From Acidobacteriota bacterium (GTDB taxonomy: Bacteria; Acidobacteriota; Holophagae; Holophagales; Holophagaceae), in the NCBI GenBank assembly GCA_016195985.1, contig JACPYP010000022.1, positions 186,001 through 250,000 of the forward strand: a DNA stretch of 64,000 bases. The letters are read 5' to 3'. Below, in pieces: positions 2,534 through 18,590 of the stretch; position 1 is the first letter of the stretch, and each line of letters starts with the position of its first letter. The notes under the pieces were generated by a model. The model did not search any database and was not told the origin of the DNA. It saw only the letters and a program-made list of their open reading frames with translations. The translations under genes were made by a program, and so were the position numbers.

Positions 2534-2566
2534 AAAGCCGCAAAGAAATCAGCTAATTAGATCAGA

Positions 2567-4342: not shown

Positions 4343-4362
4343 TGTTCTGCGGTGCGAAGTGT

Positions 4363-4689
4363 TTACTTCTTCTTGGCGGCCTTGGCGGGCTTGGTGGCCT
4401 TCGCCTTGGGCTTGGCGGCCTTGGCGGCCTTCGAGGCCTTGAAGCTCATGGACTTCGAGGCGGCGATCTTGATGGGCTCGCCCGTCTGGGGGTTGCGGCC
4501 CGTGCGAGCCTTGCGGCTCTTCTGGCTGAAGGTGCCAAAGCCGACGAGAGCGACCTTTCCACCCTTGTTCACGTGGGTGGCGATGGTCTCGAGGACACAG
4601 TTGATCGCCGTGGCAGCAGCCGTTTTGGTGATGTCGGCGGCCTTGGCGACCACATCGACGATTTCAGCCTTGGAGAGGTTTTCGGCCAA
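4363..4689 (-). CDS. HU-family DNA-binding protein with lysine/alanine-rich C-terminal tail
   Basis: The 108-residue reading begins at TTG 4689 (AENLSKAEIVDVVAKAADIT), six bases after an AGGAGG ribosome site at 4696-4701. Frames starting further upstream have no such site and add residues not seen in HU proteins. Residues 1-90 form the HU/IHF fold, with GGKVALVGFGTFSQKSRKAR and the NPQTGEPIKIAASKS beta-arm region containing the intercalating proline. The last ~18 residues are a Lys/Ala/Pro tail (AKPKAKATKPAKAAKKK), resembling the histone-H1-like tails of some HU variants and expected to bind DNA non-specifically. Single gene with its own terminator. Confidence 0.9.
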   Translation of the reverse strand: MAENLSKAEIVDVVAKAADITKTAAATAINCVLETIATHVNKGGKVALVGFGTFSQKSRKARTGRNPQTGEPIKIAASKSMSFKASKAAKAAKPKAKATKPAKAAKKK

Positions 4690-5010
4690 GAGAGGCCTCC
4701 TGTGTGAAAGCGCCATCGGGCGCGGGTTGTTGATGGGTGCGGCGCGAACGCCTTGCCGCTTGGATATTGCCTCAAATTTGGATGAGATCAAGCATTCAGA
4801 ATGCAAATCGTTTGGCCGGGGATGCAGGAATCCCGCAGCTAAGCCGCCGCCAGAGCCGGTTCGATGCGGTCAAAACGCCCATTCTACGGGCCTTTTGGCC
4901 ATTCCGGCCCCCGGGCCGGCAAGGCTCCGGCGGCGCCCCGCCTCATTCGGGCCGGAATGCATGCCGGGGCCCCGGGGTGCCGATCTGGGGGTATCGACAA
5001 GGAGCCCGAC
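4690..5010. other. Divergent intergenic region (HU promoter side and plus-strand barrel gene)
   Basis: 321 bases. It carries the HU ribosome site (4696-4701), a short GCATTC-A-GAATGC palindrome at 4792-4804, and a weak minus-strand -35/-10 candidate around 4765-4792. A GC-rich inverted repeat at 4905-4920 is nested in a longer one (4902-4910 with 4950-4958). It has no T run, so a terminator role is doubtful. No gene is seen. Confidence 0.45.
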
Positions 5011-5790
5011 ATGAACCGGACCACCCTGGTGCTCGGCCTCGTCACCTGCGCGCCCCTGCTGTCCGGGGATCTGGACCGCACCTTCCAGTTCGACCTGCAT
5101 CGCGTGGGGCCCACCTTCGAGGGCCACTTCAACGGCGTGCAGAACGGAAAGCCTTTGAGGGTGGACCTCCAGAACGATTTCGGGCTCCAGAAGGATTCCA
5201 CCAAGCTCGGTCTCAGCCTGGAGTACCAGGGACCCCGCTTCGCCGTGGAATTCTCCGGCGAGGAGCAGGACTACCGCGGCCACAACTTCATCCAGAAGGA
5301 CGTGCAGCTCAACGGCTCCACCTTCCATGCAGGGGCCCTGGTCGATTCAGACGTCAAGCTGCGGAACTACACCTTCAACTGGACCATCCGCGCGTTCGCG
5401 CGGCCCCAGTTCTGGATCGGCATCGACCTTGGGGCGCGCGTGTGGGACCTCAGGATGACCGCCTCCGCCTATGAACCGCTGACCACGGCCTACGTCCCTC
5501 CCGTCACCGAGAAAGTGCCCCTGCCCATTCCGCAGATCGGCCTCTCCACAGGCTTCAATGCCTTCGACAAACGGATCGTCGCCAAGGGCTACTACCACCT
5601 GCTCAGCGCGAAGGGCGCCACTTACCATCACGCGGGAGCGGACCTGCGCTACTTCCCCGTGCGGTGGCTGGGCGTGCGCGTGTTCACGGACACGGAAAAG
5701 CTGGATGTGCCCAACGGTTCGGTCAAGGACGACCTCGAGATCCGGCTGGACCGGCAGGGCACCGGCTTCGGCGTCGTGCTGCGCTTCTAG
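5011..5790 (+). CDS. Predicted exported beta-barrel protein, function unknown
   Basis: 259 residues from ATG 5011, with AAGGAG at 4999-5004. Upstream in-frame codons lack a signal-like start. The N terminus (MNRTTLVLGLVTCAPLLSG) resembles a signal peptide. The rest alternates polar and aromatic residues in strand-like stretches (YTFNWTIRAFARPQFWIGI, KGYYHLLSAKGATYHH) and ends in VVLRF, with a terminal Phe typical of outer-membrane barrels. I do not recognise a named family. It stands alone between the HU gene and a convergent lipoprotein gene. Confidence 0.7.
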   Translation: MNRTTLVLGLVTCAPLLSGDLDRTFQFDLHRVGPTFEGHFNGVQNGKPLRVDLQNDFGLQKDSTKLGLSLEYQGPRFAVEFSGEEQDYRGHNFIQKDVQLNGSTFHAGALVDSDVKLRNYTFNWTIRAFARPQFWIGIDLGARVWDLRMTASAYEPLTTAYVPPVTEKVPLPIPQIGLSTGFNAFDKRIVAKGYYHLLSAKGATYHHAGADLRYFPVRWLGVRVFTDTEKLDVPNGSVKDDLEIRLDRQGTGFGVVLRF

Positions 5791-5818
5791 CTCGAAGGAA
5801 CACCTGGGCGGAGAGACC

Positions 5819-6619
5819 TCACTGCCCCAACACCAGCCGGTAGCCGTTGATGGTGAGCACGCCACACCCCAACGAGACGCCCGGATCGGTGATGGAGGCA
5901 TTGAAGCGCACCTCGGCGGCGGCCGGTGGAAGGGACAAGCTCAACACACCTGAGCTGGGATAGGCACAACCGGGCGACCAGACGAGCGGCGCCGTCTGCG
6001 GAATGGCCACCGTCACGGTATCGCCCGCGGGCTGGGTCTGGTGGAAGGCGTAGGTGCCCCAGAACTTCACGGCGTTGGCATTGGACCAATCCGCCTGCAG
6101 GCTGGTGGTGTAGGCCCAGGTCTTGTTCTTGGAGGCATCCGCCGTGACCTGGCGGGAGACTGTGAAGGGCTGGCCCTCAGGCATCGTGAGCGAAGCCGTC
6201 TTTGCCGAGGTGTTGACCGTGATGATCTTGGTGCCGGCGTAATGCCAGGCGCCGATGGCGTCCGTCACGACCACATCGAAGAGGGCGTTGTTCACCACGG
6301 TCCCGGTTCCGGAGGCCGTGACCGTGACCGTGCCGGTCATGATGCCGCCATTGGCCGACAAGCACCCAGTGAAGGTGTAGCGGAAGCTGCTTGGACTGAG
6401 GGTGCTCACCGTGACACAGCCGCCGCTGGAGGAGCCCGCGGCGATGCTGTCGGGGCGGAGGCTTTCCAGGTCCGTGAAGACCGTGGTGGCCACTCCCGCA
6501 GGGGAGGCCTTCAGCGAGGCCGCATCAGTGTTCTGCACCTGGACCTCGGTGGTGGTGCTGGAGGTGCAGGCAGCCAGGCCCAGCACCGCCGCCGCGGCCG
6601 CACAGGTTCGGATGGACAT
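5819..6619 (-). CDS. Predicted lipoprotein, function unknown
   Basis: 266 residues. Signal peptide with lipobox LAAC (cysteine 18), then a Thr/Ser-rich stretch (TSSTTTEVQVQNT) likely acting as a linker. The remainder is rich in Thr, Val and Gly and reads as beta-structure; two cysteines (near SSGGCVTV and FTGCLSANG) may form a disulfide, with others near CAYPSS and LGCGVL. No known domain recognised. A ribosome site AAGGAGG lies upstream of ATG 6619. It is convergent with the barrel gene at 5011. Confidence 0.7.
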   Translation of the reverse strand: MSIRTCAAAAAVLGLAACTSSTTTEVQVQNTDAASLKASPAGVATTVFTDLESLRPDSIAAGSSSGGCVTVSTLSPSSFRYTFTGCLSANGGIMTGTVTVTASGTGTVVNNALFDVVVTDAIGAWHYAGTKIITVNTSAKTASLTMPEGQPFTVSRQVTADASKNKTWAYTTSLQADWSNANAVKFWGTYAFHQTQPAGDTVTVAIPQTAPLVWSPGCAYPSSGVLSLSLPPAAAEVRFNASITDPGVSLGCGVLTINGYRLVLGQ

Positions 6620-6884
6620 GGGACCTCCTTACGGCCAGACCCCTCTATCGGCTTGGGAAGCCAGGTGGGTGAGATTCAATCCAACTGAGCGACATTGGGT
6701 GGAGACCCATGCCCGGCGTGGTCTGGCGGTCCCAACGGCATCAGGGGGGCTCTTGAAATCAACGTTGTCCTGATCCCGTTCCAGCTGAGGGTCAGCAGCC
6801 TCTCTCCGAGACCCATGCCCGGTGGCCCCCAAAGGCTGGCCTGGTTCACCCAGACTCCTGCCTCTTGCAGGGTTGCATTTCATC
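6620..6884. other. Intergenic sequence upstream of the sigma-54 control region
   Basis: 265 bases between the divergent lipoprotein gene and the upstream block of the reductive-dehalogenase-family operon. I see no gene. It ends in an imperfect TTGCA/TGCAA repeat (6865-6890), where enhancer sites of sigma-54 promoters commonly lie. I looked for a cobalamin riboswitch here because the operon encodes likely cobalamin proteins, and found none. Confidence 0.4.
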
Positions 6885-6936
6885 TTGCAATGCCCATCAA
6901 TAATCACCTTTGACTCGTATTTTTTAAAATTAATTA
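6885..6936 (+). promoter_or_regulatory. Upstream block shared with the 17041-17091 region; candidate enhancer site
   Basis: This stretch begins TTGCAATGCC and continues with AATAATCACCT, TCG and an A/T-rich ATTTT/TAAA part. The same order of elements (TTGAAATGCC, AAAATCGCCT, TCG, ATTTT, TAAA) occurs at 17041-17091. The distance from the first T to the -24 TGG is 89 bases here and 90 there. Shared sequence at fixed distance from two -24/-12 promoters fits binding sites for one sigma-54 activator, most simply the product of the gene at 15309. The A/T-rich part could also favour IHF or HU bending. Confidence 0.6.
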
Positions 6937-6973
6937 TATATATATTTATATACACATTTTCATTCAACATTCC

Positions 6974-6990
6974 TGGCCCTCGATTTGCAT
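6974..6990 (+). promoter_or_regulatory. Sigma-54 (-24/-12) promoter of the reductive-dehalogenase-family operon
   Basis: The sequence TGGCCCTCGATTTGCAT matches the sigma-54 consensus TGGCAC-N5-TTGCA at all but one of the strongly conserved positions. The invariant GG (6975-6976) and GC (6987-6988) are exactly 10 bases apart. Transcription would begin near 7000 and leave a leader of about 66 bases before the start codon at 7066. A sigma-54 activator is encoded directly after the operon. Confidence 0.75.
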
Positions 6991-7065
6991 TGTTCGAAGC
7001 GATGCCGGCGCCTCGTTTGTTCCGACGTAACGGATTTTGGTGCATCGGATCGGGGAGGTCTCCGC

Positions 7066-7536
7066 ATGTCATCCAGTCCATCGCGCTTGCTCCAGTGGGG
7101 ATTCCTGGCCACAGTCCTCGGGGTTTCCACCTTGGTGGGAGCCATGGCCTTTTCCAAGCCCACCCTCAAATCCACTCACAACTGGAAGCGTGACGGCGGC
7201 GTAAGCCGGGCTCCGGCACCCACCGAGGCTGAGATCCAAAGCGCCCTGAGGTCAGTGAAGGACGCGGAACTCAATCTGAACATCGTGGACCTTGGGCTGA
7301 TCTACGAAGCCAGGCAGTCCAAGCCCGGGCACGTCGACATCCTCATGACCCTCACCACCCCCAGTTGTCCTTTCGGAAACGCCATCGTTCAGGATGTACG
7401 CAAGGCCCTCTTCGCACTGCCTGGGCTCAACACGGCGGACCTGCGGGTGACCTTCGAGCCAGCCTGGAGTTGGGACCGGGTCCCCGAAGAAGTCCGGAAA
7501 AGCATGATCCAGGGCGCCACGGCGCATGCGCACTGA
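7066..7536 (+). CDS. Membrane-anchored DUF59 (MIP18-like) protein
   Basis: 156 residues from ATG 7066, with GGAGG at 7054-7058. Residues 12-30 form a single N-terminal membrane segment or uncleaved signal (GFLATVLGVSTLVGAMAF). The remainder is a DUF59/MIP18 domain: LRSVKDAELNLNIVDLGLIY and the hallmark LTTPSCPFGNAIVQDVRKAL with its conserved Cys. Cytosolic relatives (SufT, PaaD, MIP18) help assemble Fe-S centres. A membrane-tethered version at the head of an operon encoding many Fe-S proteins suggests a dedicated maturation role, which is inference. The gene downstream starts 7 bases after the stop. Confidence 0.78.
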   Translation: MSSSPSRLLQWGFLATVLGVSTLVGAMAFSKPTLKSTHNWKRDGGVSRAPAPTEAEIQSALRSVKDAELNLNIVDLGLIYEARQSKPGHVDILMTLTTPSCPFGNAIVQDVRKALFALPGLNTADLRVTFEPAWSWDRVPEEVRKSMIQGATAHAH

Positions 7537-7543
7537 GGATCCA

Positions 7544-8182
7544 ATGCTGCCCATCACTCCCCTGCTCAACGGCTTCCTTTTGGGCCTCTCCACTGGCCCC
7601 GTGTGCATGATCAGCTGCGTGCCATTGATTCTCCCTTTCACCCTTGGGCGAGGTGGCGGCAGCCTTTGGCCCTTTGTGGGGAAATTCCTCGGAGGGCGCC
7701 TCGTCGCTTACAGCCTGGTTGGCATCCTGGCTGGCCTGCTGGGATCAGCCCTGCCACCGTCCTTTCGCCGGGTGGGCATCGTGCTATGGATCCTCTTGTC
7801 CCTGCTGCTGGTAATGCACGGCACAGGTTGGGGCTTCAAGCATCTTGGGTTCTGCCGGGCGGGCTACCGGTTCATGAACCATCGCCACTTCCCCGCCATC
7901 CTTGGCTTCATGGCGGGCATCAGCGTCTGCCCTCCCTTCCTCCTGGCTGTGGCCTACGCCATGGAGCGCGGTACCCAGGTGGCGGGCGGTCTCGCATTCT
8001 TCCTCGCCTTCTTTGCCGCCACCACCCTCTACGTGCTGCCCCTGGGCTTCCTGGGCCACTTGCCGCGAAGCCGCTGGCTGGGCCACATCGGCAAGGTGGC
8101 GGCCGTGGGCGCGGGGCTTTTCATGCTTTACCAGGGCCTCGCGGCTCTGCGGATTTCCTCCATCCAAACCTCCCTGCCCTGA
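7544..8182 (+). CDS. TauE/SafE- or DsbD-like polytopic membrane protein
   Basis: About 212 residues from ATG 7544 (MLPITPLLNGFLLGLSTGPV); an alternative ATG at 7526 overlaps the preceding gene by 11 bases. Six or so membrane segments are visible. It carries the paired-cysteine pattern of the DsbD/CcdA-like and urease-accessory H-type family: GPVCMISCVPLILPF near the N terminus and GISVCPPFLLAVAYAMERG in the middle. Relatives move reducing equivalents or metal/sulfur species across the inner membrane. In this operon it could maintain thiols or supply a metal to periplasmic Fe-S proteins; this is not shown. Confidence 0.75.
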   Translation: MLPITPLLNGFLLGLSTGPVCMISCVPLILPFTLGRGGGSLWPFVGKFLGGRLVAYSLVGILAGLLGSALPPSFRRVGIVLWILLSLLLVMHGTGWGFKHLGFCRAGYRFMNHRHFPAILGFMAGISVCPPFLLAVAYAMERGTQVAGGLAFFLAFFAATTLYVLPLGFLGHLPRSRWLGHIGKVAAVGAGLFMLYQGLAALRISSIQTSLP

Positions 8183-8210
8183 GGCGGGGACATCTAAGGA
8201 GTCACGCCAC

Positions 8211-10130
8211 GTGAAACACAACAAAAAACTCCTCATGGCGATCCTGTGGTCGGCCATGGGGGCCTCCCTCATCCTGTTCGTGGCCACACGTTTCAACGTA
8301 TACGCCTTCCTGTCGATCTTCGTGACGGCAGCGCTGGCTCTGGCCTGGTGGGGCATGAACTTCCCCATCACGGAAACGGCGCGTCGCAATACGCACCTGG
8401 GTGTCGTCGGTTTCTGGACCCTCATCTTCGGGCTGCTCTTCGGGCCCTTCCCAGTCCCCAAGAAACCTCAGTACGTGGTCGGCGAAGTCCACCGCTTCAG
8501 CGAAATGGAACACGGGTGGGGCCGCATGTACTCCGGCGCCCTCGGTCCCCAGATCGCCAATCACGGTCGGGTCTACACCGATCCCGAGGAAGTCAACGGC
8601 ATCGGTGGCGCCCGCGGGAAGAGCCCCAGTTTCGTGACGGGTTATCCCTTGGCCCGCGCACTCTTCGGGGGCGCCTCGGCCCTGGATGGCTACCGCGGGG
8701 TGGAGAAGCACGGTGGTGAGCCCGCAGCCCCGGTCAAATATCCGTGGGTGAACTACGAAAGCGAAGCCAGGGGCACCAAGCTGGGCTGGAACAAAGGCGA
8801 CATGCTGCTGCCGGAAGTGGCCAAGCAGCTGGGCTACGAGAAGGCTCGCTACACGCCCGAAGAAAACTCCCTGATGGTCAAGGGCATCGGGAAATGGCTC
8901 GGCTCCATGGATGTGGCCATCGCCGAGGTGGATCCCCGATGGTTCTACAGCCACGACTTCATCACCAAGGGCACGCCGCTGCCTCTGGAGGAAGTGAAGG
9001 AACTGAAGTACGCCATCCAACTCTTCGTCGACCAGGACTGGACCCGTGTGCACAACGATCCTGGGAATTCCTGGTGGTCCGTCGCCAAGAGCGGCCAGGC
9101 TTACTCAACCAGCGCCTGGCAAGCCGTTCGCCTCGCCGCGATGCTGCGCGACATGGGCTACGTGGCGCGGGTGGGCTTTGGCGGCATTAACTACGACTCC
9201 GTCGAGTCTCCCATTTCCGTTTACAGCGGCAAGGGCGAGTACGGTCGCCTGTCAGATGCTGTGGTTCCCAGCGCAGGCGGGCTTCGTTTCAAGAGCGCCT
9301 CGGTGCTCACCAACTTCCCCCTGAAGGCAGGGGATCCCGATCAAGGCTACGGTATCACCCGCATGTGCGCGAACTGCGACCGCTGCGCCCGGGCCTGCCC
9401 GGTCAGCTCCATCGCCATGGGCGAGCCCACGGTGGAGAACGGCGTGAACATGTGGCAGGTGGATAAGGACAAGTGCGTGCGCTTCCGCGCCGGGAACCTG
9501 GGTGGCAACTGCTGCAACGAATGCCTGCGCGTATGCCCCTACAACAAACCCGATACCCTCTTCCACCGCCTGGGCAACTACATGATCGCCCACAGCCCAG
9601 TGGCGCCCTACCTTTTCGGCAGCGTGCGCGGCGTGGGTCTCGAGGATTGGCTTGATTTTGACTACTCCTCCGAGGCCGGCCATGTGAAGAATCGTCCCGC
9701 TCGGTGGGTTCAGGAGAACCCCGGCTTCAAGATGCAGTTCCCCTACTACGTCGGCAACTACATCTACACCGAGGAAGACCGCTCCACGGCCGAAGCTTGG
9801 GCCGCCGGAGAGGGCGCCAAGATGGGCAAGGTCGGCCTCACGTACAAGGGTGTGGAATGGGGCAAGATCGAGCCTCGGCTTCTGGATGCCAACGGCCGCA
9901 GCCGCAACGTCCATCACGACTTCGAGAAGGGAGCGCTTCCCGCTGAGCTTCCGCTTCCCGGAAAGACGATCTCCAAGGAAGAAGCCCAGGCACTTCTGGA
10001 CAGCGGACAGGCCTTCGCGGGCGGCAGCAATCACACGGATGCGAACGTCTTCCCGCCCCGCAGTCCCAAGTACGAGAGGGGCGTCCTGACCTATAAGGAA
10101 GCCGCGAAGAAGTGGAAAGAGGAGAAGTGA
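8211..10130 (+). CDS. Membrane-anchored reductive-dehalogenase-family protein (RdhA-like 1)
   Basis: 639 residues from GTG 8211, preceded by AAGGAG. There is no Tat signal. Instead residues 5-85 contain three membrane helices, placing the catalytic part outside the cytoplasm if the N terminus is inside. The C-terminal half shows the family's two [4Fe-4S] motifs: CANCDRCARACP near residue 386, then KCVRF...CCNECLRVCPYNK around 423-446. Upstream lies the cobalamin-domain-like segment (AMLRDMGYVARVGFGGINYD, GEYGRLSDAVVPSAGGLRF). RdhA enzymes use corrinoid and two clusters to remove halides from organic molecules. Substrate is unknown, and a non-dehalogenating role is possible. An unusual long C-terminal extension (~190 residues) follows the clusters. 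Confidence 0.8.
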   Translation: MKHNKKLLMAILWSAMGASLILFVATRFNVYAFLSIFVTAALALAWWGMNFPITETARRNTHLGVVGFWTLIFGLLFGPFPVPKKPQYVVGEVHRFSEMEHGWGRMYSGALGPQIANHGRVYTDPEEVNGIGGARGKSPSFVTGYPLARALFGGASALDGYRGVEKHGGEPAAPVKYPWVNYESEARGTKLGWNKGDMLLPEVAKQLGYEKARYTPEENSLMVKGIGKWLGSMDVAIAEVDPRWFYSHDFITKGTPLPLEEVKELKYAIQLFVDQDWTRVHNDPGNSWWSVAKSGQAYSTSAWQAVRLAAMLRDMGYVARVGFGGINYDSVESPISVYSGKGEYGRLSDAVVPSAGGLRFKSASVLTNFPLKAGDPDQGYGITRMCANCDRCARACPVSSIAMGEPTVENGVNMWQVDKDKCVRFRAGNLGGNCCNECLRVCPYNKPDTLFHRLGNYMIAHSPVAPYLFGSVRGVGLEDWLDFDYSSEAGHVKNRPARWVQENPGFKMQFPYYVGNYIYTEEDRSTAEAWAAGEGAKMGKVGLTYKGVEWGKIEPRLLDANGRSRNVHHDFEKGALPAELPLPGKTISKEEAQALLDSGQAFAGGSNHTDANVFPPRSPKYERGVLTYKEAAKKWKEEK

Positions 10131-10137
10131 GGCGACC

Positions 10138-10365
10138 ATGCTGAATCTAAAAGTCAACTTCCAAATGAAGTGGTACGAAGGACTGCTTTGGGCCGTGGAA
10201 ATCGGCCTGGTCGCCTTCGGTCTTTGGGCGCTCGTCGACACGCTCATGATTTCGTGCTCGAAGGCCGCATGGCGCTTCCTTCTGTTGTTCCTGATTTGGG
10301 CACTGCCCGGCGCAGCGGTGTTGGTGTTCTTCCGCCCCGGCCGGAACGCGCAAGACAACGCTTGA
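10138..10365 (+). CDS. Small two-helix membrane protein (possible RdhB-like anchor)
   Basis: 75 residues starting 7 bases after the preceding stop. Two hydrophobic stretches (EGLLWAVEIGLVAFGLWALV and FLLLFLIWALPGAAVLVFF) are followed by a basic tail. Position directly behind an rdhA-like gene is where rdhB membrane anchors normally lie, but canonical RdhB proteins have three helices and the sequence match is not clear. The RdhA-like proteins here already carry their own helices, so a classical anchor may be unnecessary. Confidence 0.65.
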   Translation: MLNLKVNFQMKWYEGLLWAVEIGLVAFGLWALVDTLMISCSKAAWRFLLLFLIWALPGAAVLVFFRPGRNAQDNA

Positions 10366-10422
10366 CCCCCTCGGCGCGACCGGGCCCGTCCCGGCCGCGC
10401 CGCAGCTATCCCCGGATGATTC

Positions 10423-11850
10423 ATGACCGATCCCACTCGACCCCGGATGCGCTGGTACACCCTCTTGTGGGTGCTCCTTCTCTCGCTGTTCATTCCACTC
10501 GGCATCCTCTTGGCCACCACCGCCTTGGCAGAACACGAATTCAGGGCCGTGGCCGTTTCCCTGGGCGCCACCCTGCTGATCATCGGCCTCATCCTTCTGC
10601 TCTTGGCCCTCAGCCGCCGGGGCGCGCTCGAGAGCCTCTATGCTCGTCGCGGCCTCAAGGCGGGCCTGGCCGTGACGGCCCTGTTCACGGCCTCACTGGT
10701 AATCCCCTCGGAAGCCAGCCTGCCCCGGAAGGACATCCGGCGTTTCACCACCGGCACCCAGGCATATGACGCCAGCACGCAGCCCGGCAACGAGATCTTC
10801 ACTCAGATCGAGAAGAAGCAGGCCAGTTCTGACAAGGACGTCATGACCTTTTCCATCTTCGATGTCTGCGTGGGCAAGGTCTCCCACCGCGTGAGCCGCG
10901 ACGGCGAGGTGTCGCCCAACCGCGTGGAAGTGATCAACCCCGGAATTCTCACCCAGAAGCTGAAGGCTGATGCCAAAGCCCTGGGTGCCGATGTGGTGGG
11001 CATCACCGAGCTGGATCCGCGCTTCGTGTTCCAGAAGGACAACGAGGGCAACCCCGTGCGGCTCAAGCACCGCTACGCCATCGTGCTGGGCAAGGGGCTT
11101 GACTACAAGCTGAGCCATCCCACCGCGCCTCTTCCCTGGCAGAGCCTCTACTCCTCGATTCCCGAAGAAGTGGCCGCGGTGCTTTCGGGGCGGCAGGTGC
11201 AGACTGCGACCCAGATCCCAGAGGAAACCCTCAACGAGTACCGGGAAACCCTCGAATTCTTTTCCGATGGGGGTCGCACGGCTGTGGAACTGGCCAGCCT
11301 GATTCGCAGCTATGGCTATCCGGCGCGGGCGCACTTCGGCCGCTGGAGCGAAGTCCAGGTCGTCCCGCTCGCGATCATGGCGGGCCTGGGCGAACTGGGG
11401 AAGAACGGCATGCTGGTGAATCCCGCCTTCGGCCCCCGAGGCAGCTTCCCCATCGTCACCACGGACCTGCCCCTGATCCCGGACAGGCAGGTGGATCTTG
11501 GCATCCAGGAATTCTGCCGGGCCTGCGCCAAATGCGCCGACGCCTGCCCACCCAGGGCGGTCCCCCAGGGGGATCCCGCCCTGGTGAACGGATTGCTCCG
11601 CTGGCAGGTGGACGGAACGAAGTGCTTCTCATACATCAAGACCAATCCCAAGTGCATGGCCTGTGTGGGCGCCTGTCCGTACAACAAGAAGGACTACTTC
11701 GTGCACCGGTTGGCCGTGACCGCCATCGCCCGGAAATCCCGGGTGATGAACTGGCTGATGCTCCGGTTGGACAACCTATTGGGCTATGGCGCCCGCTCGG
11801 TGCGAGTCGGCCAAGAGGCACGGAAAACCCTTGTCCGGGTGCCTCAATGA
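10423..11850 (+). CDS. Membrane-anchored reductive-dehalogenase-family protein (RdhA-like 2)
   Basis: 475 residues from ATG 10423. Three N-terminal membrane helices (residues 12-95) replace a Tat signal. The body is closer to textbook RdhA than its neighbour: PLAIMAGLGELGKNGMLVNP near 320, FGPRGSFPIVTTDLPLIPDR near 340, then two cluster motifs, FCRACAKCADACPP near 364 and KCFSY...KCMACVGACPYNKKD near 405. The family uses a corrinoid and two [4Fe-4S] clusters; QueG, present elsewhere in this window, is its cytosolic relative. Two RdhA-like paralogues in one operon could act as a pair, for instance one catalytic and one electron-relaying. Confidence 0.82.
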   Translation: MTDPTRPRMRWYTLLWVLLLSLFIPLGILLATTALAEHEFRAVAVSLGATLLIIGLILLLLALSRRGALESLYARRGLKAGLAVTALFTASLVIPSEASLPRKDIRRFTTGTQAYDASTQPGNEIFTQIEKKQASSDKDVMTFSIFDVCVGKVSHRVSRDGEVSPNRVEVINPGILTQKLKADAKALGADVVGITELDPRFVFQKDNEGNPVRLKHRYAIVLGKGLDYKLSHPTAPLPWQSLYSSIPEEVAAVLSGRQVQTATQIPEETLNEYRETLEFFSDGGRTAVELASLIRSYGYPARAHFGRWSEVQVVPLAIMAGLGELGKNGMLVNPAFGPRGSFPIVTTDLPLIPDRQVDLGIQEFCRACAKCADACPPRAVPQGDPALVNGLLRWQVDGTKCFSYIKTNPKCMACVGACPYNKKDYFVHRLAVTAIARKSRVMNWLMLRLDNLLGYGARSVRVGQEARKTLVRVPQ

Positions 11851-12005
11851 TCCGGTTGACGGCTTCCCGGGAATGGTGGCTGGTGGCTGCAGGCGGGCTG
11901 CTCGTGGGCATCGCCTTCAATGTGGCCCTGCACGCCCATCCAGTGGGTCTAGGGGGCCTTCTGGGCGGGATCGCCAGCGCGCTGCTCGTGCGGGGGCTCG
12001 CGTGA
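11847..12005 (+). CDS. Small membrane protein, function unknown
   Basis: 52 residues starting at an ATGA overlap with the RdhA-like 2 stop. One or two hydrophobic helices (EWWLVAAGGLLVGIAFNVAL and GGLLGGIASALLVRGLA) with two histidines between (LHAHPVG). Too short for a family call. The ATGA overlaps on both sides indicate coupled translation within the operon. Confidence 0.6.
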   Translation: MIRLTASREWWLVAAGGLLVGIAFNVALHAHPVGLGGLLGGIASALLVRGLA

Positions 12006-12133
12006 TGGCTGCGCTCGACAACCTCATCACCGGCGGCCTGATGGTTCTGGCCTGCTGGGCGCTGTGGCGCACTTCACGCCGCCCACGGCAGAGCGGGTGT
12101 GCAGGCTGCGATCACCCGGAGGGTTGCTCATGA
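12005..12133 (+). CDS. Small Cys-rich membrane protein, FeoB-associated-like
   Basis: 42 residues: one membrane helix (NLITGGLMVLACWALW), a basic stretch, then a terminal CAGCDHPEGC cluster. Helix-plus-Cys-tail proteins of this size are known as FeoB-associated Cys-rich membrane proteins. Here no FeoB is present, so the Cys tail may bind iron or an Fe-S cluster for the neighbouring proteins. It starts at the A of the preceding stop codon and ends in an ATGA overlap with the next gene. Confidence 0.6.
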   Translation: MAALDNLITGGLMVLACWALWRTSRRPRQSGCAGCDHPEGCS

Positions 12134-13584
12134 CAATCCTCGGAGCCATGGCCCTCGCCCTGTTCCTGGGCGCCTGCCTGGCCTCCATCCGGGGCTGGAT
12201 TCCCCAGCGGGCGCTCACCCTCCAGACCACCCTGCTGCTGGTGGCAGCCCTCATCGTGATCCTCCGCTTGGCCTTCGGAAAGCCGCCGGCCTTCGGAGAG
12301 ATCCTGGGCGGCACGAGCCTGCATCCCATCACCGCCACCGTGGCGGGTTTTCTCCTTGCAGGAGCCCTTCAGGCGGCCGGAGGCTTTGACGCGGCATCCG
12401 CCTTGCTGCGGCGTCTCACGGGCACCGGCCTGGGCCTCCCCTTCGCCCTGGTGGTCCTGGTGAACCTGCCCACCATCTTCGCCATGCCCTGTGGTCGCAT
12501 CCTGGCGGCGCCACTCATGCCCCTCGCGCTGCTTCTGGGGCAGGAGGCAGCGGAACGCAGTGGCGACCGCACCATGCTGGCCATGGTCGTCTTCGGCATG
12601 CTGGTGAATGCAGGAGCCAGCTGCGTGCCGTCGGCCCTCGGAGGCATTGGCCTCCTGGGTGAGGGCATGGGCCGTTTCCCCGCTGGATCCTTTGGCGATC
12701 CCAGCCAGCTCGGAACCCTGGTGCTGACCCTTGCCACCATGGCCCTGATCCGTTTCGTTCACGGCCGGGATCTGAAGATGCGCCCGCCCGCCACCACTGA
12801 GCCTTCCGTGACCGTGCCCGATCAGGGCTACACGGCGCTCGCAGTCTTTGTCCTGATGCTGGCGCTGGTGATGATCGTGCGCCCCCGCATTCCGCTCCAA
12901 GTCATCCTCACCGTCAGCACCCTGATGATCATGGCCCTCGCCCGGCTCTCCCTGGCGAATGTGCTGGCGGGTGTAATCCTCCATCCCCTTTCCGCCATGA
13001 TCGCGGGCTTTCTGGTGGCTGGCGCCCTCTCGGCCTCCGGTGGCTTCGATGCGCTGCTGTGGCTGCTGGAAGGTCTCGCGCGGCACACGCCCCTGGGCTT
13101 CGTCGGCGTCAGCATCCTGGTGGTCTTCCTGCCCCTGATGCTGGCCATGCCCTGCGGGCGCATCATGTCTGTGGCCCTCATTCCCGGCGTGCTGCTCTTC
13201 GGCGAGAAGGTTGCCCATGCCACAGCCTTCCCACTGGCGGCCCCCGTGTTGCTGGTCTCCTTCATCCTCAGTGCAGCGGGAAGCTGTGGTCCCAGCCCCC
13301 TCGGCGGCGTGGGCAACATCGGCGAGGGGCGCCTGCGCATTCCAGACTTCTGGTCGAGCCGTCCTCAGGCGTTGGGCATCTTCCTCGGCGTACCTGCGGC
13401 GGCCCTGGTCATCCGCTTCGGAGGCGTGAGTGGCGGCGCCTATCGGCTGTCCACGCTCTCCACCTGCCTGGGCTTCGGGCTGGTCTCCGGTTTGGGCACC
13501 AACTGGCTGTTTGGTTACCGTCTGCGCCACCTCGGCGGCCTTGCGGGTGGCCTGTTGGTGGGCCTTCTGGTCTGGATTCTATGA
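12130..13584 (+). CDS. Internally duplicated polytopic membrane protein with conserved Cys motifs
   Basis: 484 residues from ATG 12130 (ATGA overlap with the preceding gene). About a dozen membrane helices arranged as two homologous halves, roughly residues 35-225 and 255-450. Each half repeats, in order: LHPITATVAGFLLAGAL / LHPLSAMIAGFLVAGAL, then GGFDA, then AMPCGRI, then GASCVPSALGG / GSCGPSPLGG. The design resembles ion-transporter or channel folds made by duplication, and two cysteine motifs per half are unusual in transporters. I cannot name a family. In an operon of Fe-S proteins it could be a quinol- or ion-coupled membrane module. Confidence 0.75.
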   Translation: MTILGAMALALFLGACLASIRGWIPQRALTLQTTLLLVAALIVILRLAFGKPPAFGEILGGTSLHPITATVAGFLLAGALQAAGGFDAASALLRRLTGTGLGLPFALVVLVNLPTIFAMPCGRILAAPLMPLALLLGQEAAERSGDRTMLAMVVFGMLVNAGASCVPSALGGIGLLGEGMGRFPAGSFGDPSQLGTLVLTLATMALIRFVHGRDLKMRPPATTEPSVTVPDQGYTALAVFVLMLALVMIVRPRIPLQVILTVSTLMIMALARLSLANVLAGVILHPLSAMIAGFLVAGALSASGGFDALLWLLEGLARHTPLGFVGVSILVVFLPLMLAMPCGRIMSVALIPGVLLFGEKVAHATAFPLAAPVLLVSFILSAAGSCGPSPLGGVGNIGEGRLRIPDFWSSRPQALGIFLGVPAAALVIRFGGVSGGAYRLSTLSTCLGFGLVSGLGTNWLFGYRLRHLGGLAGGLLVGLLVWIL

Positions 13585-14075
13585 AGCGCCCCGCCCTTAC
13601 CCTCAACACCACAGCCATGCTGTTGCTGACGATCTTCCTGGGGCTGCTGGGCGGCCATGCCCTGGCCAACCGCCAACCCTGGGCCCTCACATGCTATGAC
13701 TGCAAAGCCTGCGGCGCGGCCTGCGCGTTGGGCATCGATCCTCAGGGTTTTGTGGCAGCCCAGCTGGCCAATGATCCAGATCTGCCCATCTATGCCACGA
13801 ACATCCGGCTGAACGTTCGGAAGGCGCTGGCCCTGGATCCCGAGCTCGAGATCACGCGCGGCGAGCGGCATCTGCCCTTGCGGCAGGCGGTGACCCAATT
13901 CGGCTTGGCCCCTTCAGAAGAAGTCGTCACCTATCGGATGAAGGCCCGCCACGCGGCGGCCCTCTGCCTTGAATGCGCCGCCTGCGAGAAGGCCTGCGTC
14001 CTGGAGTTGCCGCTGCTCCGGGCCATCCGCCAGCTCAAGGCACCGCAGCCAGCGGGAGCCACTCATGCGAAGTAA
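13581..14075 (+). CDS. Membrane-anchored iron-sulfur protein
   Basis: 164 residues starting in an ATGA overlap with the duplicated membrane gene. An N-terminal helix or signal (AMLLLTIFLGLLGGHALA) is followed by two cysteine clusters: CYDCKACGAACALGID near residue 38 and CLECAACEKACVLELP near residue 130. Both follow the CxxCxxxCxxxC ferredoxin-type spacing. This fits an electron-transfer protein exposed on the periplasmic face. Together with the next two genes it forms a set of three membrane-linked Fe-S proteins. Confidence 0.75.
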   Translation: MKRPALTLNTTAMLLLTIFLGLLGGHALANRQPWALTCYDCKACGAACALGIDPQGFVAAQLANDPDLPIYATNIRLNVRKALALDPELEITRGERHLPLRQAVTQFGLAPSEEVVTYRMKARHAAALCLECAACEKACVLELPLLRAIRQLKAPQPAGATHAK

Positions 14076-14709
14076 GGCCTTCCTGCTCCTCGCCGCGATC
14101 ATCACGGGACTGGCTCTGGGCGCCCTGATCGCACAAGCTCCTTTCAAAGAGCGCTTCCCTGGGGCCTACCCCACGTTCGAGGCACCCATCCGGGGGGCCT
14201 TCCGTTTCAGTCCCGAAGGGGTGGAGATCACCGTGGCCGAAACCACCAAGAGCGGCCGCCTGATTGTTTTTGCCTACGAACCCGGTGGGCGGATGGTGGG
14301 CATTCTCAAGCCCATGGAGCAGGGGCGCATTCAGGTGCGCCCCGGCGACCTGGCTGATTTCGAAGTCCAGGTGGAGGGCAAGGCCGTGAAGGGCTTCCGC
14401 TTTTTGAAACGCATGGATCGCTACGCGGAATCCGTGGACATGGCCTTGCGCCTTCGCCAGGCTTCGGACCAGGGGCTTCGGTTTGGCATCCAGCGCTGCC
14501 TGCATCCCTTCTGCACACGCTGCACCTCCGGCTGCGCCAGCGTCATCAGCGGAAGCGACCTGCCCATCACCCTGGAAGTGGCCCCCAGCGGCCATATCCA
14601 CCCGGTCTACGCCAAAGGCAAATGCCCCCGATGCGGCATCTGCTTTACCTGGTGTCCCTCGGGCCTCATCACCCAGACCCGCTCGCTCTCGGGGGGAGGA
14701 GTCCACTGA
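14065..14709 (+). CDS. Membrane-anchored iron-sulfur protein with N-terminal helix
   Basis: 214 residues from ATG 14065, overlapping the preceding stop by 11 bases. An N-terminal helix (FLLLAAIITGLALGALIA) is followed by a ~120-residue beta-rich domain of unknown type (RGAFRFSPEGVEITVAETT). Two C-terminal cysteine sets follow: CLHPFCTRCTSGCASV near 151 and CPRCGICFTWCPSGL near 187. The second is a ferredoxin-like half motif ending in CP. It probably relays electrons next to the RdhA-like proteins; the beta domain gives no further clue. Confidence 0.72.
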   Translation: MRSKAFLLLAAIITGLALGALIAQAPFKERFPGAYPTFEAPIRGAFRFSPEGVEITVAETTKSGRLIVFAYEPGGRMVGILKPMEQGRIQVRPGDLADFEVQVEGKAVKGFRFLKRMDRYAESVDMALRLRQASDQGLRFGIQRCLHPFCTRCTSGCASVISGSDLPITLEVAPSGHIHPVYAKGKCPRCGICFTWCPSGLITQTRSLSGGGVH

Positions 14710-15032
14710 TGGCCGAAGCGTTCTACGCCGCGTGCATCCTCTTTCCCATGGCCGTGCTGGGCTGGCTGGTGGTGCGTCTCGTGCTTAGGGGCAGCTCACA
14801 GGTTCTGCTTTGCATGGAGTGTGAGCAGTGCATGGGGCGGTGCCCCCTCGTGACTCGGAAGGGCCCCGATTTCCCTGGCCCCCGCGGCATCATGGTGGCC
14901 GCCAAGGCGGGCCGGCTTCAGAAGGCGGCCGAGGGCGGCGCCCTGGCCTGCACCAACTGCGGTCTATGTGAGAAAGCCTGCCCGCGCGGCCTGGCACCCT
15001 ATCAAGAACTGGAGGTGCTCAGGCGGAAATAG
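14709..15032 (+). CDS. HdrC/ferredoxin-like 2[4Fe-4S] membrane protein
   Basis: 107 residues starting in an ATGA-type overlap with the preceding gene. One N-terminal helix (FYAACILFPMAVLGWLVVRLVL) is followed by two four-Cys motifs: CMECEQCMGRCPLVTR near residue 35 and CTNCGLCEKACPRGLAP near residue 81. The spacing and the arrangement resemble heterodisulfide-reductase subunit C or the Fe-S subunits of quinol:electron-acceptor modules. It is the last gene of the operon, and a small GTCGGC/GCCGAC hairpin (15059-15072) follows without a T run. Confidence 0.75.
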   Translation: MAEAFYAACILFPMAVLGWLVVRLVLRGSSQVLLCMECEQCMGRCPLVTRKGPDFPGPRGIMVAAKAGRLQKAAEGGALACTNCGLCEKACPRGLAPYQELEVLRRK

Positions 15033-15308
15033 GCCATTCACGGGCGGCGCGGGAAGAGGTCGGCAGGCCGACTGAAGCGAGGCTTTGCGTTGCATTTCGA
15101 CTGTATTGGGAATCAACCGTAATCCAATTTCCGGGCAGATTGGTCGAGGGCTTTCTTTGCATCTTCCCGCTCTGGCACTCCGAACATATCGATGGCCCAA
15201 CGAGAAATAATGCCCTGGAGGTGACCCTTTTCTCAGGTTCGACGAAGTAGCATGAGCCTGCACGGCGAAGGTGCTGCGTGACGCGCGCCAAAGGATCTGG
15301 GCACGTCC

Positions 15309-17024
15309 ATGGAGTCGACTGTGAGGTTGCTGAATTCTCATCTTCTTGAGTTGTTCGACATCGACCACGAGACCGGAGTCATCCGCCTCGGCGACGAGCG
15401 CATGGTCATTCAAAGCACGGCGGCCCTTGGCCTGCTGCGCAAGGAGCTGATCAATACGGTGGGGCTCGAAACAGGGCGCCGTGTGAGGATCCGCTTCGGG
15501 TTCGCCCAGGGGTGCCACGACGCGCTCTCCTTGAAAGAACGCTTGGCCAATCTCAGTCCCGAAGAACGCATCCTCATGGGCTGCACCCTCCACACCCTGG
15601 AAGGGCTGGTGACAGTGGAACCGCTCAAGATCAGTTCCGAACCAGGCCGCAAGCATTTCGAGATGGAAGCGCTCTGGCACAACTCGCACGAGGGCGCCGA
15701 ACACCTGAAACATTTCGATCGCGGCGCCATGAGCGTGTGCTGGGCCACCTTGGGCTACGCCACTGGCTTCGCCACAGCCTGCGCAGGCCACGACATCTAC
15801 TTTCAGGAAGTGGAGTGTGTGGCCAAAGGCGACGCCCGCTGCCGCGTCATTGGCAAGGACGCCGGGAGTTGGGGCGAAGCCCTCGAAGGCATCCGGGCGG
15901 ATTACCTCCTGACCGACCAGGGCCGGCCGCGCCTCACCCTTTCCGGCCTCCAGGAGGAGGTCCAGTCCCTCCAGGCTGCGACCCGAAGCCAGCAGGAGAA
16001 GCTCCTCCGCTATGAACGGATCCTCACCGGGCGGGAGCCCGAGATGGATCTGCTGCGGGCCAGGGTCGCCAACATGCCCGACTCCGCCCGCTTCATCGTG
16101 CGCAGCGCGGCCATGGAGGAGGTCCTGCGTATGGCCGCCCAGGTGGCGCCCCTGGATACCCATGTGGTGATTGTGGGCGAAAGCGGCACCGGCAAGGAAT
16201 TCATCGCCCAGTTCATCCATGAACACAGCGGACGCGCTGCAGAACCCATGGTGGTGGTGAACTGCGCGGCGCTGCCGGAAACCCTGCTGGAGTCGGAACT
16301 CTTCGGCCACAAGAAGGGGGCTTTCACCGGCGCGGTGAAGGACAAAGTGGGCCTCTTCGAACATGCGGGAAATGGCACCCTGTTTTTGGACGAAATCGGC
16401 GAGATGCCGTTGTCTACCCAGGCCAAGCTGTTGCGGGTGCTGGAAAACCGCGAAGCACGCCGGGTGGGTGACGAGCACACATTCAAGGTCCGGGCCCGCA
16501 TCGTGGCAGCCACGAACCGCGATCTGCGCGAGGCGGTGGCCCAAGGATCCTTCCGCTCCGACCTCTACTTCCGCATCGGAGCCTTTCCCATCCTCACTCC
16601 GCCACTGCGGGCCCGGCAGGAAGACATCCCTCCCCTGGTCTATGAATTCATGCAGCGGTCCTCCGCCCGGGTTCAGAAGGAGATCCGTTCCATCAGCTCG
16701 GAGGCGATGGCCCTGCTCATCAGGTATCCCTGGCCGGGGAACGTGCGTGAGCTTCAGCATGTGATCGAACGCGCCGTGATCGTGGCTCGTGGCGATGCCG
16801 TCGCCGCGCGGGACCTGCCTCCCGAGGTCCTCAACCGGCCCCGGATCAAATGCAATGGCGGCAGCCTCGACCTGAAAGAACGGGAGATCACCATCATCCA
16901 GGAGGCTCTGGAGCGTTTCAGCGGCAATCGCACCAAGGCCGCTGAGGCGCTGCATATCAGCCCCGTCACTTTGTGGCGGAAGCTCAAGCGCCATCATTTG
17001 ATGAAAGACCCCCTTGCCACATGA
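15309..17024 (+). CDS. Sigma-54-dependent activator with XylR_N and V4R sensor domains
   Basis: 571 residues. Residues ~15-110 resemble the XylR/DmpR N-terminal activator domain, and ~130-190 the V4R (4-vinyl reductase) ligand domain (ATGFATACAGHDIYFQEVEC, CRVIGKD). The AAA+ module follows, with Walker A GESGTGKE near 290 and the sigma-54-contact motif GAFTGA near 338. A Fis-type helix-turn-helix (NRTKAAEALHISPVTLWRKL) ends the protein. Relatives (XylR, DmpR, PoxR) bind aromatic compounds and switch on -24/-12 promoters. Such promoters lie before the upstream operon (6974) and the downstream export unit (17131), making this the likely regulator of both. Confidence 0.88.
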   Translation: MESTVRLLNSHLLELFDIDHETGVIRLGDERMVIQSTAALGLLRKELINTVGLETGRRVRIRFGFAQGCHDALSLKERLANLSPEERILMGCTLHTLEGLVTVEPLKISSEPGRKHFEMEALWHNSHEGAEHLKHFDRGAMSVCWATLGYATGFATACAGHDIYFQEVECVAKGDARCRVIGKDAGSWGEALEGIRADYLLTDQGRPRLTLSGLQEEVQSLQAATRSQQEKLLRYERILTGREPEMDLLRARVANMPDSARFIVRSAAMEEVLRMAAQVAPLDTHVVIVGESGTGKEFIAQFIHEHSGRAAEPMVVVNCAALPETLLESELFGHKKGAFTGAVKDKVGLFEHAGNGTLFLDEIGEMPLSTQAKLLRVLENREARRVGDEHTFKVRARIVAATNRDLREAVAQGSFRSDLYFRIGAFPILTPPLRARQEDIPPLVYEFMQRSSARVQKEIRSISSEAMALLIRYPWPGNVRELQHVIERAVIVARGDAVAARDLPPEVLNRPRIKCNGGSLDLKEREITIIQEALERFSGNRTKAAEALHISPVTLWRKLKRHHLMKDPLAT

Positions 17025-17040
17025 AGGAGCTTCTTTCAGT

Positions 17041-17091
17041 TTGAAATGCCTGGCCATGAAAATCGCCTGATCGATTATTTTAAACACTATA
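17041..17091 (+). promoter_or_regulatory. Upstream block shared with 6885-6936; candidate enhancer site
   Basis: TTGAAATGCC, AAAATCGCCT, GATCGATT and TTTTAAA in the same order and at nearly the same distance from the -24 element (90 bases) as the block at 6885. It contains an AATCG-N6-CGATT inverted repeat (17061-17076), a plausible half-turn-spaced site for an activator dimer. It starts 16 bases after the activator gene's stop. Confidence 0.6.
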
Positions 17092-17130
17092 AAAGATAAA
17101 CTTGATTAACACCAAATACGCCTAATGCCT

Positions 17131-17147
17131 TGGCTCGGACTTTGCGA
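17131..17147 (+). promoter_or_regulatory. Sigma-54 (-24/-12) promoter of the outer-membrane channel/ABC exporter unit
   Basis: TGGCTCGGACTTTGCGA. The invariant GG (17132-17133) and GC (17144-17145) are exactly 10 bases apart, and the -12 part TTTGC is consensus. Transcription would start near 17157, which rules out the long in-frame start codon at 17130 for the downstream gene. Confidence 0.72.
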
Positions 17148-17231
17148 TTGCAATCGGGTGCCTCCTTCGATTTGGACCCTATGGTCACCTTCCGGAGTCA
17201 CGCACCCAACCACCTTCCTGGAGATCTCCCC

Positions 17232-18590
17232 GTGGAACCAAAGCACCCCCATGCGGCCCTGGCTGCATCCGCCATCCTTTCGCTCCTGGGAGCCACGCCA
17301 TGCCTGAGCCAGACGCCCCCAAGCGATTCCAAATATGAATTCGGTTTCGAAGAGCGCGTTCGCTCTGAGGACTGGGACAACATCGCCGATCACAACAATG
17401 CCAAGGCGGATTACCGCACGCACTACCGTTTCCGCACCCGGGCCTGGCTCACCGCCAACCTGACCAAGGATCTGGAACTCTCTGCGGGCCTCTGCAGCGA
17501 AAACCGCAAGACCACCCGCCCTGAGAATTTCCGGTACAACGGCCGTGAAGTCGTCTTTGACACGCTCTACCTCGACTACACCTTCTCTCCCGCCTTTTCC
17601 GTGCGGGTGGGGCGCCAGAACTTGATGCGCGGCGAAGGCTTCGTCCTTTTCGACGGCAGTTCAGGCGACGGCTCCCGCACCACCTACTTCAACGCCATTG
17701 ATGCCACCTTCACCTGGAGCAAGTCCAAGCTGGAGTTCCTGGTCATTTCTGATCCCAAGGAAGACAAGCTTCCGGTGGTCAACGAAATCAAGAATCCAGC
17801 GGAAAAAGTCCTGCTCAATGAATGGGATGAGCAGGGTCTTGGCCTCTACTACACCGGCCGGGAGATCCCAGGTACCAGCCTGGAAGGCTACTATTTCTAC
17901 AAGACGGAGAAGAAGGACTACCGGGCGGTCACGTCGCCGGCCCTCCAGCCTGACAGGCGCATCCACACCCTGGGAGGCCGAGTGGTGCAGGACCTGCAGG
18001 GCGGATGGACGCTGAGCGCGGAGGCCGCGGGCCAGCAGGGTACCCAGGATGCTCGTCCGGGCACACTCGACCATGCCAGGGACATCAGCGCCTGGGGCGG
18101 GTATGCCCGCACGAAGAAAACCTTCGAAGGCGGCTGGAAACCCTCGGTTTCCTTGGCCTACATCGCCCAGTCCGGACAGGATCGCAGTTCCGACAAGATC
18201 ACGGCCTGGGATCCCATCTTCAGCCGCTGGCCCAAGTGGAGCGAGTTCTATGTCATCTCCGTGGCGCCGGAGAAGGCCATCGGCTACGCCACCAACAACA
18301 GCATGTGGGAAGCTGAATTCAAATGCAGCCCCACGAAGGCCCTGGACCTCCGCGCCACCCTCTACAAAATGGCCGCGATGGAAGCTCCCGCGGCTGCGCC
18401 GGGTCCGATCTTCAGCAATGGCAAGGACCGCGGCCTGCTCTGGCAGACCCGCGCGGACTACCGGTTCAGCCCGTCATTGAAGGGTCACGTGCTCTATGAG
18501 CATTTCACGCCGGGATCATTCTATTCCGGCGATGACTCCGGCCATTTCTTGCGCTTCGAATTCAGCTACACCTTCAAGACCCGTTTCTAG
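17232..18590 (+). CDS. Outer-membrane beta-barrel protein, alginate-export (AlgE)-like
   Basis: 452 residues from GTG 17232, preceded by GGAG. This start puts a clean signal peptide (EPKHPHAALAASAILSLLG...CLSQ) at the N terminus; starts further upstream (17181, 17130) give unlikely leaders, and 17130 precedes the promoter. The body reads FGFEERVRSEDWDN, RFRTRAWLTANLTKDLELSA, SVRVGRQNLMRGEGFVLFDG and ends in FSYTFKTRF with the terminal Phe of barrels, a layout seen in alginate-export-domain proteins. It heads a unit with an ABC-2 exporter, so it may be the outer-membrane exit or a solute channel. Confidence 0.72.
   Translation: MEPKHPHAALAASAILSLLGATPCLSQTPPSDSKYEFGFEERVRSEDWDNIADHNNAKADYRTHYRFRTRAWLTANLTKDLELSAGLCSENRKTTRPENFRYNGREVVFDTLYLDYTFSPAFSVRVGRQNLMRGEGFVLFDGSSGDGSRTTYFNAIDATFTWSKSKLEFLVISDPKEDKLPVVNEIKNPAEKVLLNEWDEQGLGLYYTGREIPGTSLEGYYFYKTEKKDYRAVTSPALQPDRRIHTLGGRVVQDLQGGWTLSAEAAGQQGTQDARPGTLDHARDISAWGGYARTKKTFEGGWKPSVSLAYIAQSGQDRSSDKITAWDPIFSRWPKWSEFYVISVAPEKAIGYATNNSMWEAEFKCSPTKALDLRATLYKMAAMEAPAAAPGPIFSNGKDRGLLWQTRADYRFSPSLKGHVLYEHFTPGSFYSGDDSGHFLRFEFSYTFKTRF

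Follow-up and report, generated by a model that had tools for sequence, protein, structure and literature searches.

The window analysed here is a 64,000-nucleotide stretch of contig JACPYP010000022.1 from an Acidobacteriota bacterium of the family Holophagaceae (assembly GCA_016195985.1, positions 186,001 to 250,000 of the forward strand). Positions 7066–15032 of this window hold eleven head-to-tail open reading frames on the plus strand (g1–g11; Table 1), two of which encode large proteins of the reductive dehalogenase (RdhA) type. The genes are as closely packed as a preliminary description of the locus had stated: six of the ten junctions overlap, by 1–11 bases, and the other four are gaps of 7, 28, 7, and 57 bases. 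That description envisaged a membrane electron chain ending in a pair of corrinoid enzymes, possibly for organohalide respiration or the detoxification of halogenated aromatics. The analysis leaves this interpretation half right: the system is of the reductive-dehalogenase type, but only one of its two RdhA is a likely enzyme, the other being a degenerate partner, and both are encoded on a horizontally moved island.

The two RdhA-type proteins

The products of g3 (RdhA1) and g5 (RdhA2) both match the RDH model TIGR02486 (E 4.8e-37 and 5.2e-42), and their matches to the QueG model are much weaker (E 2.2e-4 and 4.6e-10). The paired [4Fe-4S] motifs reported for them are confirmed, and the eight cysteines of these motifs are invariant across five copies of RdhA1 and four of RdhA2, drawn from the window and from the spirochaete counterparts described below. 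Judged by sequence, both proteins belong to the RdhA family, as had been proposed, yet they are not equivalent.

The difference lies at the catalytic positions. In a HMMER alignment, residues Y298, K361, and R426 of RdhA1 fall on Y426, K488, and R552 of NpRdhA (4ras), which are named as crucial to catalysis and to the binding of the substrate (excerpt of PMC10463259). All three are invariant in the five RdhA1 copies. At the same places RdhA2 carries Phe (F280), Ser or Thr (position 341), and Ile or Leu, with F280 and S/T341 found in all four orthologs. These substitutions stand alone in a family alignment of 46 rows, which comprises 44 mined open reading frames picked by their Fe-S motifs, the two window proteins, and three plasmid references, minus three rows that were dropped. 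Tyr occupies the first of these positions in 43 rows and Arg or Lys the second in 43, and the three exceptions, all Phe at the first position and Ser or Thr at the second, are the same three RdhA2 rows. RdhA2 also has a conserved core, with 153 positions invariant in the four genomes. RdhA1 is likely an active reductive dehalogenase, and the residues of RdhA2 mark it as a catalytically degenerate relative which keeps both [4Fe-4S] sites but has lost the proton-donor Tyr and the Lys/Arg. The postulated pair of corrinoid enzymes is therefore not upheld: the catalytic Tyr, whose presence had been left to be checked, is found in RdhA1 and is missing from RdhA2.

In the tree, RdhA1 falls in a ten-row clade with plasmid-borne proteins of Comamonas (pBHB) and Nitratireductor OM-1 (support 100/94), NpRdhA itself lying outside the tree set. 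The pBHB protein of Comamonas sp. 7D-2 is known as BhbA. RdhA2 forms a long branch which is weakly placed (81/81). The comparison with a transmembrane RdhA clade, also suggested beforehand, separates the two proteins from it: a 19-row clade which gathers the other three-helix RdhA, 16 in number, excludes both, in a comparison set that does not contain the sequences of the 2019 hybrid-RdhA paper itself. As for the cofactor, a search for CobS, positive in 10 of 14 controls, gave no match in the window’s own genome; the host therefore probably imports its corrinoid rather than completing it de novo.

Table 1. Features of the island and its operon, with window coordinates.
Feature	Position	Strand	Description	Evidence or remark
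Inserted island (operon + regulator)	6676..17216 (approximate limits)			Nucleotide match to empty site of same-genus genome
Candidate sigma-54 promoter	6974..6989	+	TGGCCC-N5-TTGCA, 76 bases before g1	Suggestive only
g1	7066..7536	+	Membrane-anchored DUF59 (FeS_assembly_P) protein, 156 aa	PF01883 E 6e-16
g2	7544..8182 (alternative start 7526)	+	DsbD_2 membrane protein, 212 aa	PF13386 E 1.8e-17
g3 (RdhA1)	8211..10130	+	639 aa; three N-terminal helices	NpRdhA-type residues Y298, K361, R426
g4	10138..10365	+	75 aa, two helices	Homologs adjoin RdhA1 in 5/5 copies
g5 (RdhA2)	10423..11850	+	475 aa; three N-terminal helices	ExE E37/E39; catalytic positions F280, S341
g6	11847..12005	+	52-aa membrane protein	tblastn counterpart in L096
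g7	12005..12133	+	42-aa single-helix Cys-rich protein	Same-position counterparts, by eye
g8	12130..13584	+	484-aa two-repeat transporter-like membrane protein	Weak CitMHS match E 0.082, below cut-off
g9	13581..14075	+	Membrane-anchored 2x[4Fe-4S] protein, 164 aa	Fer4_17 E 1.6e-7
g10	14065..14709	+	Membrane-anchored 2x[4Fe-4S] protein, 214 aa	Fer4_9 E 6e-5, below cut-off
g11	14709..15032	+	Membrane-anchored 2x[4Fe-4S] protein, 107 aa	Fer4_8 E 3.9e-11
g12	15309..17024	+	Sigma-54 activator, XylR_N + V4R sensor domains	PF06505 9e-25, PF02830 4e-8, PF00158 2.7e-69

Counterparts in Spirochaetota and the inserted island

A genome scan with RdhA1 identified two spirochaete contigs at 62–63% identity (loci L015 and L016). 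Counterparts of the remaining genes follow in the order of the window in L015, and in L016 they are present with the RdhA1–g4 pair shifted to the end of the operon. A search of the spirochaete phylum (392 genomes) added a third genome, G526 (locus L096), which has the gene order of the window. Because the gene set recurs in three Spirochaetota genomes, the eleven genes form one unit which is conserved between two phyla, Acidobacteriota and Spirochaetota. For g6 a counterpart is found in L096 (tblastn E 3.9e-8), and weaker matches tie L096 to the counterparts in L016 and L015; g7 is linked to the three loci by position and Cys-rich tails only, as read by eye. The g4 product has no family match above cut-off in the domain scans. 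All three spirochaete operons furthermore carry a four-helix-like gene and a peptidyl-prolyl isomerase gene which were not found in the window, and the isomerases have lipoprotein-like starts (by eye). Several stretches of the L096 locus are masked, among them a portion of its isomerase gene and the beginning of its g6 reading frame.

Genome G332 holds two full-length RdhA1, each with its g4, but a single full-length RdhA2 genome-wide. The second RdhA1–g4 cassette (L095, 8526–11703) lies in a 19.9-kb stretch that contains no RdhA2 and is followed by a Phenol_MetA_deg outer-membrane protein, which is not similar to the outer-membrane protein that follows RdhA1–g4 in L016.

Across 297 genomes of the window’s phylum, full-length RdhA1 occurs only in the window’s own genome, every other RdhA1 match listed lying within profile positions 199–503, and g10 is likewise confined to this one genome of the 297 at E 1e-6. 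RdhA1 has no match at E 1e-20 in 36 genomes of the same genus. Other RdhA of the phylum were compared by way of eleven surrounding stretches, which contain no other operon gene at E 0.01; one of them, L052, gave a generic sigma-54 regulator match only. Four of the eleven (L047, L048, L049, and L050) hold tandem RdhA-family pairs, without the rest of the operon.

A same-genus genome (G020, locus L073) provides the empty site. Its flanks are colinear with those of the window at 82–85% identity, window positions 3159–6675 and 17217–18588 matching L073 positions 19890–16309 and 16108–14738. Because these flanks enclose 200 bases in L073 instead of the 10,541 bases found in the window, the operon and its regulator are an inserted, horizontally acquired island. 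The V4R regulator g12 lies inside the insertion. It probably arrived together with the operon, since its relatives in the genus reach only 40–43% (E 1e-100; found in 13 of the other 40 genus genomes searched). At the upstream end of the island lies a perfect 15-base direct repeat (6702–6716 and 6808–6822, 106 bases apart), possibly an activator site or a duplication.

Partner proteins and membrane topology

Among the remaining products, the preliminary description had counted three membrane Fe-S proteins, a DUF59 protein, a thiol/TauE-like protein, and small membrane proteins. The three Fe-S proteins are those of g9, g10, and g11, each of which has eight invariant cysteines in four genomes and thus room for two [4Fe-4S] clusters, and the proposed membrane Fe-S electron chain is supported. 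The g11 protein shows below-cut-off similarity to the SdhB, QmoC, and HdrC families, and a PDB profile search with g10 returned generic ferredoxin-type domains only. The DUF59 and thiol/TauE-like assignments are also retained, the latter as DsbD_2; Cys101 of g1 and four cysteines of g2 are invariant in four genomes. The label of small membrane proteins fits g4, g6, and g7, but not g8, a far larger, transporter-like protein. Four g8 cysteines are invariant in three genomes, a count from which L015 is excluded, its g8 reading frame (14191–15447) stopping early and perhaps being frameshifted. Searched against PDB profiles, g8 had no match.

Genes resembling g8, g9, and g11 (E 3.5e-47, 0.002, and 3e-10) also occur together without RdhA in the 13-kb stretch L078 (G306:C71, about 6771–12081), where they adjoin an NrfD gene and, by eye, an NrfC-like gene. 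RdhA is present in that genome on a different contig. This grouping suggests a recurring quinone-linked redox module which was recruited into the operon. An FMN (flavin mononucleotide)-binding region guessed by eye in the same stretch was not supported by Pfam.

At a loose hydropathy threshold, RdhA1 and RdhA2 each have three N-terminal hydrophobic segments in place of a twin-arginine translocation (Tat) signal, as had been described. At a stricter threshold this holds for RdhA1 of the window, with three segments, but not for its RdhA2, with two. An ExE motif, in which E37 and E39 are invariant, lies between helices 1 and 2 of RdhA2. RdhA1 lacks it at the matching place, and RdhA2 is thus the only one of the two to carry this RdhB-type motif, which is reported from RdhB and from hybrid RdhA (excerpts of PMC6797604 and PMC10624902). 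In three genomes, both proteins show a positive N-terminus, a helix 1–2 loop with few or no positive charges, and a positive loop between helices 2 and 3 (RdhA1 +2, +4, and +4; RdhA2 +4, +7, and +8). Hence, a simple hydropathy and charge count would place the N-terminus inside and the RdhA domain outside. Such a positive helix 2–3 loop is missing from the remaining three-helix RdhA compared. Among the partners, the charges of g7 and g11 give them the look of proteins with the C-terminus inside, those of g9 suggest the N-terminus inside, and g10 is ambiguous; g1, with charges after and before its helix of +4/+1, +4/+3, and +2/+2 in three genomes, leans toward the C-terminus inside.

Actinobacterial Rieske proteins are described as having an internal Tat step at their helix 3 (excerpt of PMC4383559). 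Tat export through helix 3 was considered for the RdhA proteins as well and was set back, the proteins of L015, L095, and L096 having no Arg-Arg pair directly before the helix; in RdhA2 of L096 the pair lies about ten residues earlier, in KRRGALES.

Proposed function and known systems

The reading favored here, held with moderate confidence, is that the genes of the island build an inducible reductase which is bound to the membrane and acts on aromatics, probably halogenated ones, and in which RdhA1 would be active and RdhA2 an inactive partner. The V4R regulator would sense the aromatic and turn on the candidate sigma-54 promoter before g1. RdhA1 and g4 would form the corrinoid-dependent catalytic subunit, and RdhA2 would anchor the complex and relay electrons from quinol and from g9–g11 to RdhA1. 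The DUF59 and DsbD_2 proteins and the spirochaete peptidyl-prolyl isomerase may help to mature or fold the cluster proteins. As a whole, the complex would resemble PceA2B2 in its working, except that its pair would be asymmetric, with one active and one inactive member. The two RdhA1–g4 cassettes of G332, set against its one full-length RdhA2, fit such a hub serving interchangeable catalytic units. The substrate may be a halogenated aromatic, perhaps a phenolic one, to judge from the clade of RdhA1, the V4R regulator, and the Phenol_MetA_deg protein after the second cassette, and the earlier leaning toward halo-aromatics gains support from the clade and from the XylR_N and V4R domains of the co-inserted regulator.

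If correct, this model would describe a further RdhA architecture, consisting of a catalytic RdhA, a dedicated inactive relative, and their own membrane Fe-S relay, which is passed from phylum to phylum in one piece. The model would also show a way of tying an NpRdhA-type enzyme to the membrane, possibly to respiration, and the question of how dehalogenases obtain electrons and cofactors outside the cytoplasm would become directly testable. Furthermore, it would point to unexpected hosts, namely the window’s own lineage of Acidobacteriota and the Spirochaetota.

Several observations weigh against the model. The TIGR02486 scores of RdhA1 and RdhA2 (128.5 and 144.8 bits) lie below the curated cut-off of 160.35, and PF13486 is absent from the Pfam matches of the window at E up to 1; a PF13486 search of the window’s own genome was uninformative, matching none of 14 controls. 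AlphaFold models computed from 3-row alignments are too poor for use, the mean predicted local distance difference test score being 35.7 for RdhA1 and 40.0 for RdhA2. With respect to topology, both window proteins have a positive flank behind helix 3 as well (RdhA1 +3/-1, RdhA2 +4/-2), which in RdhA2 is as positive as the loop ahead of that helix (+4/-1). Neither protein has a classical Tat signal, and only two of five RdhA1 and two of four RdhA2, namely those of the window and L016, have an Arg-Arg pair immediately ahead of helix 3, so that the export of domains to the outer face is hard to account for. A comparison of g4 with one Sulfurospirillum protein in the RdhB position, short of a search of the RdhB family, gave no alignment. 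As for regulation, the cassettes of L015, L095, and L096 are flanked not by a V4R regulator but by Pkinase-AAA_16-HTH_18 genes (3062–7858, 3405–8123, and 498–5429, respectively), two of the three with GAF. Finally, the sigma-54 site is suggestive only and not significant by itself: its pattern, which was loosened after the site was read, has this sole exact match in the window with 0.27 expected and is present in 22 of 100 shuffles, one-mismatch sites show no excess (7 found against 6.79 expected), and no such site occurs in the stretch before g1 of the three spirochaetes.

Among the alternatives, it is unlikely that the RdhA1 pocket serves a different cobalamin chemistry, namely the reduction of a substrate without halogen, for which QueG and its substrate epoxyqueuosine would be the precedent. 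The scores below the RDH cut-off would agree with such a role, as would the long RdhA1 flanks without a Pfam domain (residues about 90–215 and 470–639) and a V4R regulator which points to an aromatic, not to a halogen. However, RdhA1 has the Tyr/Lys/Arg set of NpRdhA and a well-supported place beside the Comamonas and Nitratireductor proteins, and the QueG model matches both proteins far less well than the RDH model does.

A cytoplasmic location of the RdhA domains, with a system that detoxifies or catabolizes halo-aromatics and takes no part in respiration, is rather improbable. The catabolic RdhA like NpRdhA are reported to lie in the cytoplasm and to lack a Tat signal (excerpts of PMC6797604 and PMC10463259), and cofactor-loaded domains normally need Tat for leaving the cell. 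The positive charge after the single helix of g7 and g11, and of g1 in two of three genomes, suggests the cytoplasmic side as well. Against this stand the N-terminal and helix 2–3 charges of both RdhA in three genomes, which place the domain outside, and the lipoprotein-like starts of the spirochaete isomerases. The boldest proposal, which is improbable, has the RdhA domains crossing the membrane unfolded and being loaded with their corrinoid and [4Fe-4S] clusters at the outer face, with the operon supplying an extracytoplasmic Fe-S maturation system for an inactive hub and exchangeable RdhA1. The tools would be the membrane DUF59 assembly protein, the DsbD_2 thiol carrier, the Cys-lined transporter with its Cys-rich helper, and the lipoprotein-like foldase. 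This proposal draws on gene content, and the g1 charges, which lean toward a cytoplasmic DUF59 domain, weigh against it.

There is very little to recommend two active RdhA with different substrates, RdhA2 working with other residues. Its eight Fe-S cysteines and conserved core would allow for activity, but Tyr and Lys/Arg are jointly lost in all four RdhA2 and in no other of the 46 rows, and the second RdhA1–g4 of G332 has no further full-length RdhA2 to match it. That unrelated redox genes came to lie side by side by chance is hardly credible: although g8-, g9-, and g11-like genes are grouped near an NrfD gene on another contig without RdhA, four genomes share the set, one of them in rearranged form, and it arrived as a single insertion; its recurrence contradicts a chance origin.

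The favored model, an active RdhA1 served by an inactive RdhA2, has partial parallels in known systems. In the literature searched, reductive dehalogenases were not found joined with DUF59 or with V4R, nor were the terms periplasmic, iron-sulfur cluster assembly, and Tat-independent found together; in the literature on inactive paralogs, reductive dehalogenases are absent among the matches listed. Reductive dehalogenase genes are reported from Spirochaetota, and no such operon was found there in the excerpted text (PMC12090745). Actinobacterial Rieske proteins resemble the RdhA pair in their three helices and a possible export step at helix 3 (excerpt of PMC4383559), but the Arg-Arg pair directly before that helix is not conserved in RdhA1 and RdhA2. 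The hybrid transmembrane RdhA (Atashgahi 2019, excerpt of PMC6797604) share with the system three N-terminal helices, the lack of a classical Tat signal, and, in RdhA2, the ExE between helices 1 and 2; they have no recognizable RdhB, and the system may lack one too, g4 giving no alignment in the single comparison with an RdhB-position protein. In contrast to them, RdhA1 has no ExE, RdhA2 has no catalytic residues, and both lie outside the 19-row three-helix clade. The remaining three-helix RdhA differ in lacking the positive helix 2–3 loop, and here two unlike RdhA are part of a large conserved operon.

RdhA1 is closest to the NpRdhA/BhbA type, with which it shares the Tyr/Lys/Arg set and the clade of the Comamonas pBHB and Nitratireductor OM-1 proteins. 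Unlike that type, the window system has no fused reductase but three N-terminal helices and membrane Fe-S partners. NpRdhA contains a duplicated cobalamin-binding domain (excerpt of PMC10463259), and the asymmetric pair thus has a parallel within one chain, the degenerate half here being a separate protein with its Fe-S sites kept. In its proposed logic, the system resembles PceA2B2 (excerpt of PMC10624902), where an outer-face ExE membrane module passes electrons from quinol through two [4Fe-4S] clusters to the corrinoid. The two PceA of that complex, however, are identical and Tat-exported, PceB is separate, and the pceABCT operon has no dicluster proteins, whereas the island would join an active and an inactive RdhA to a membrane Fe-S relay of their own.

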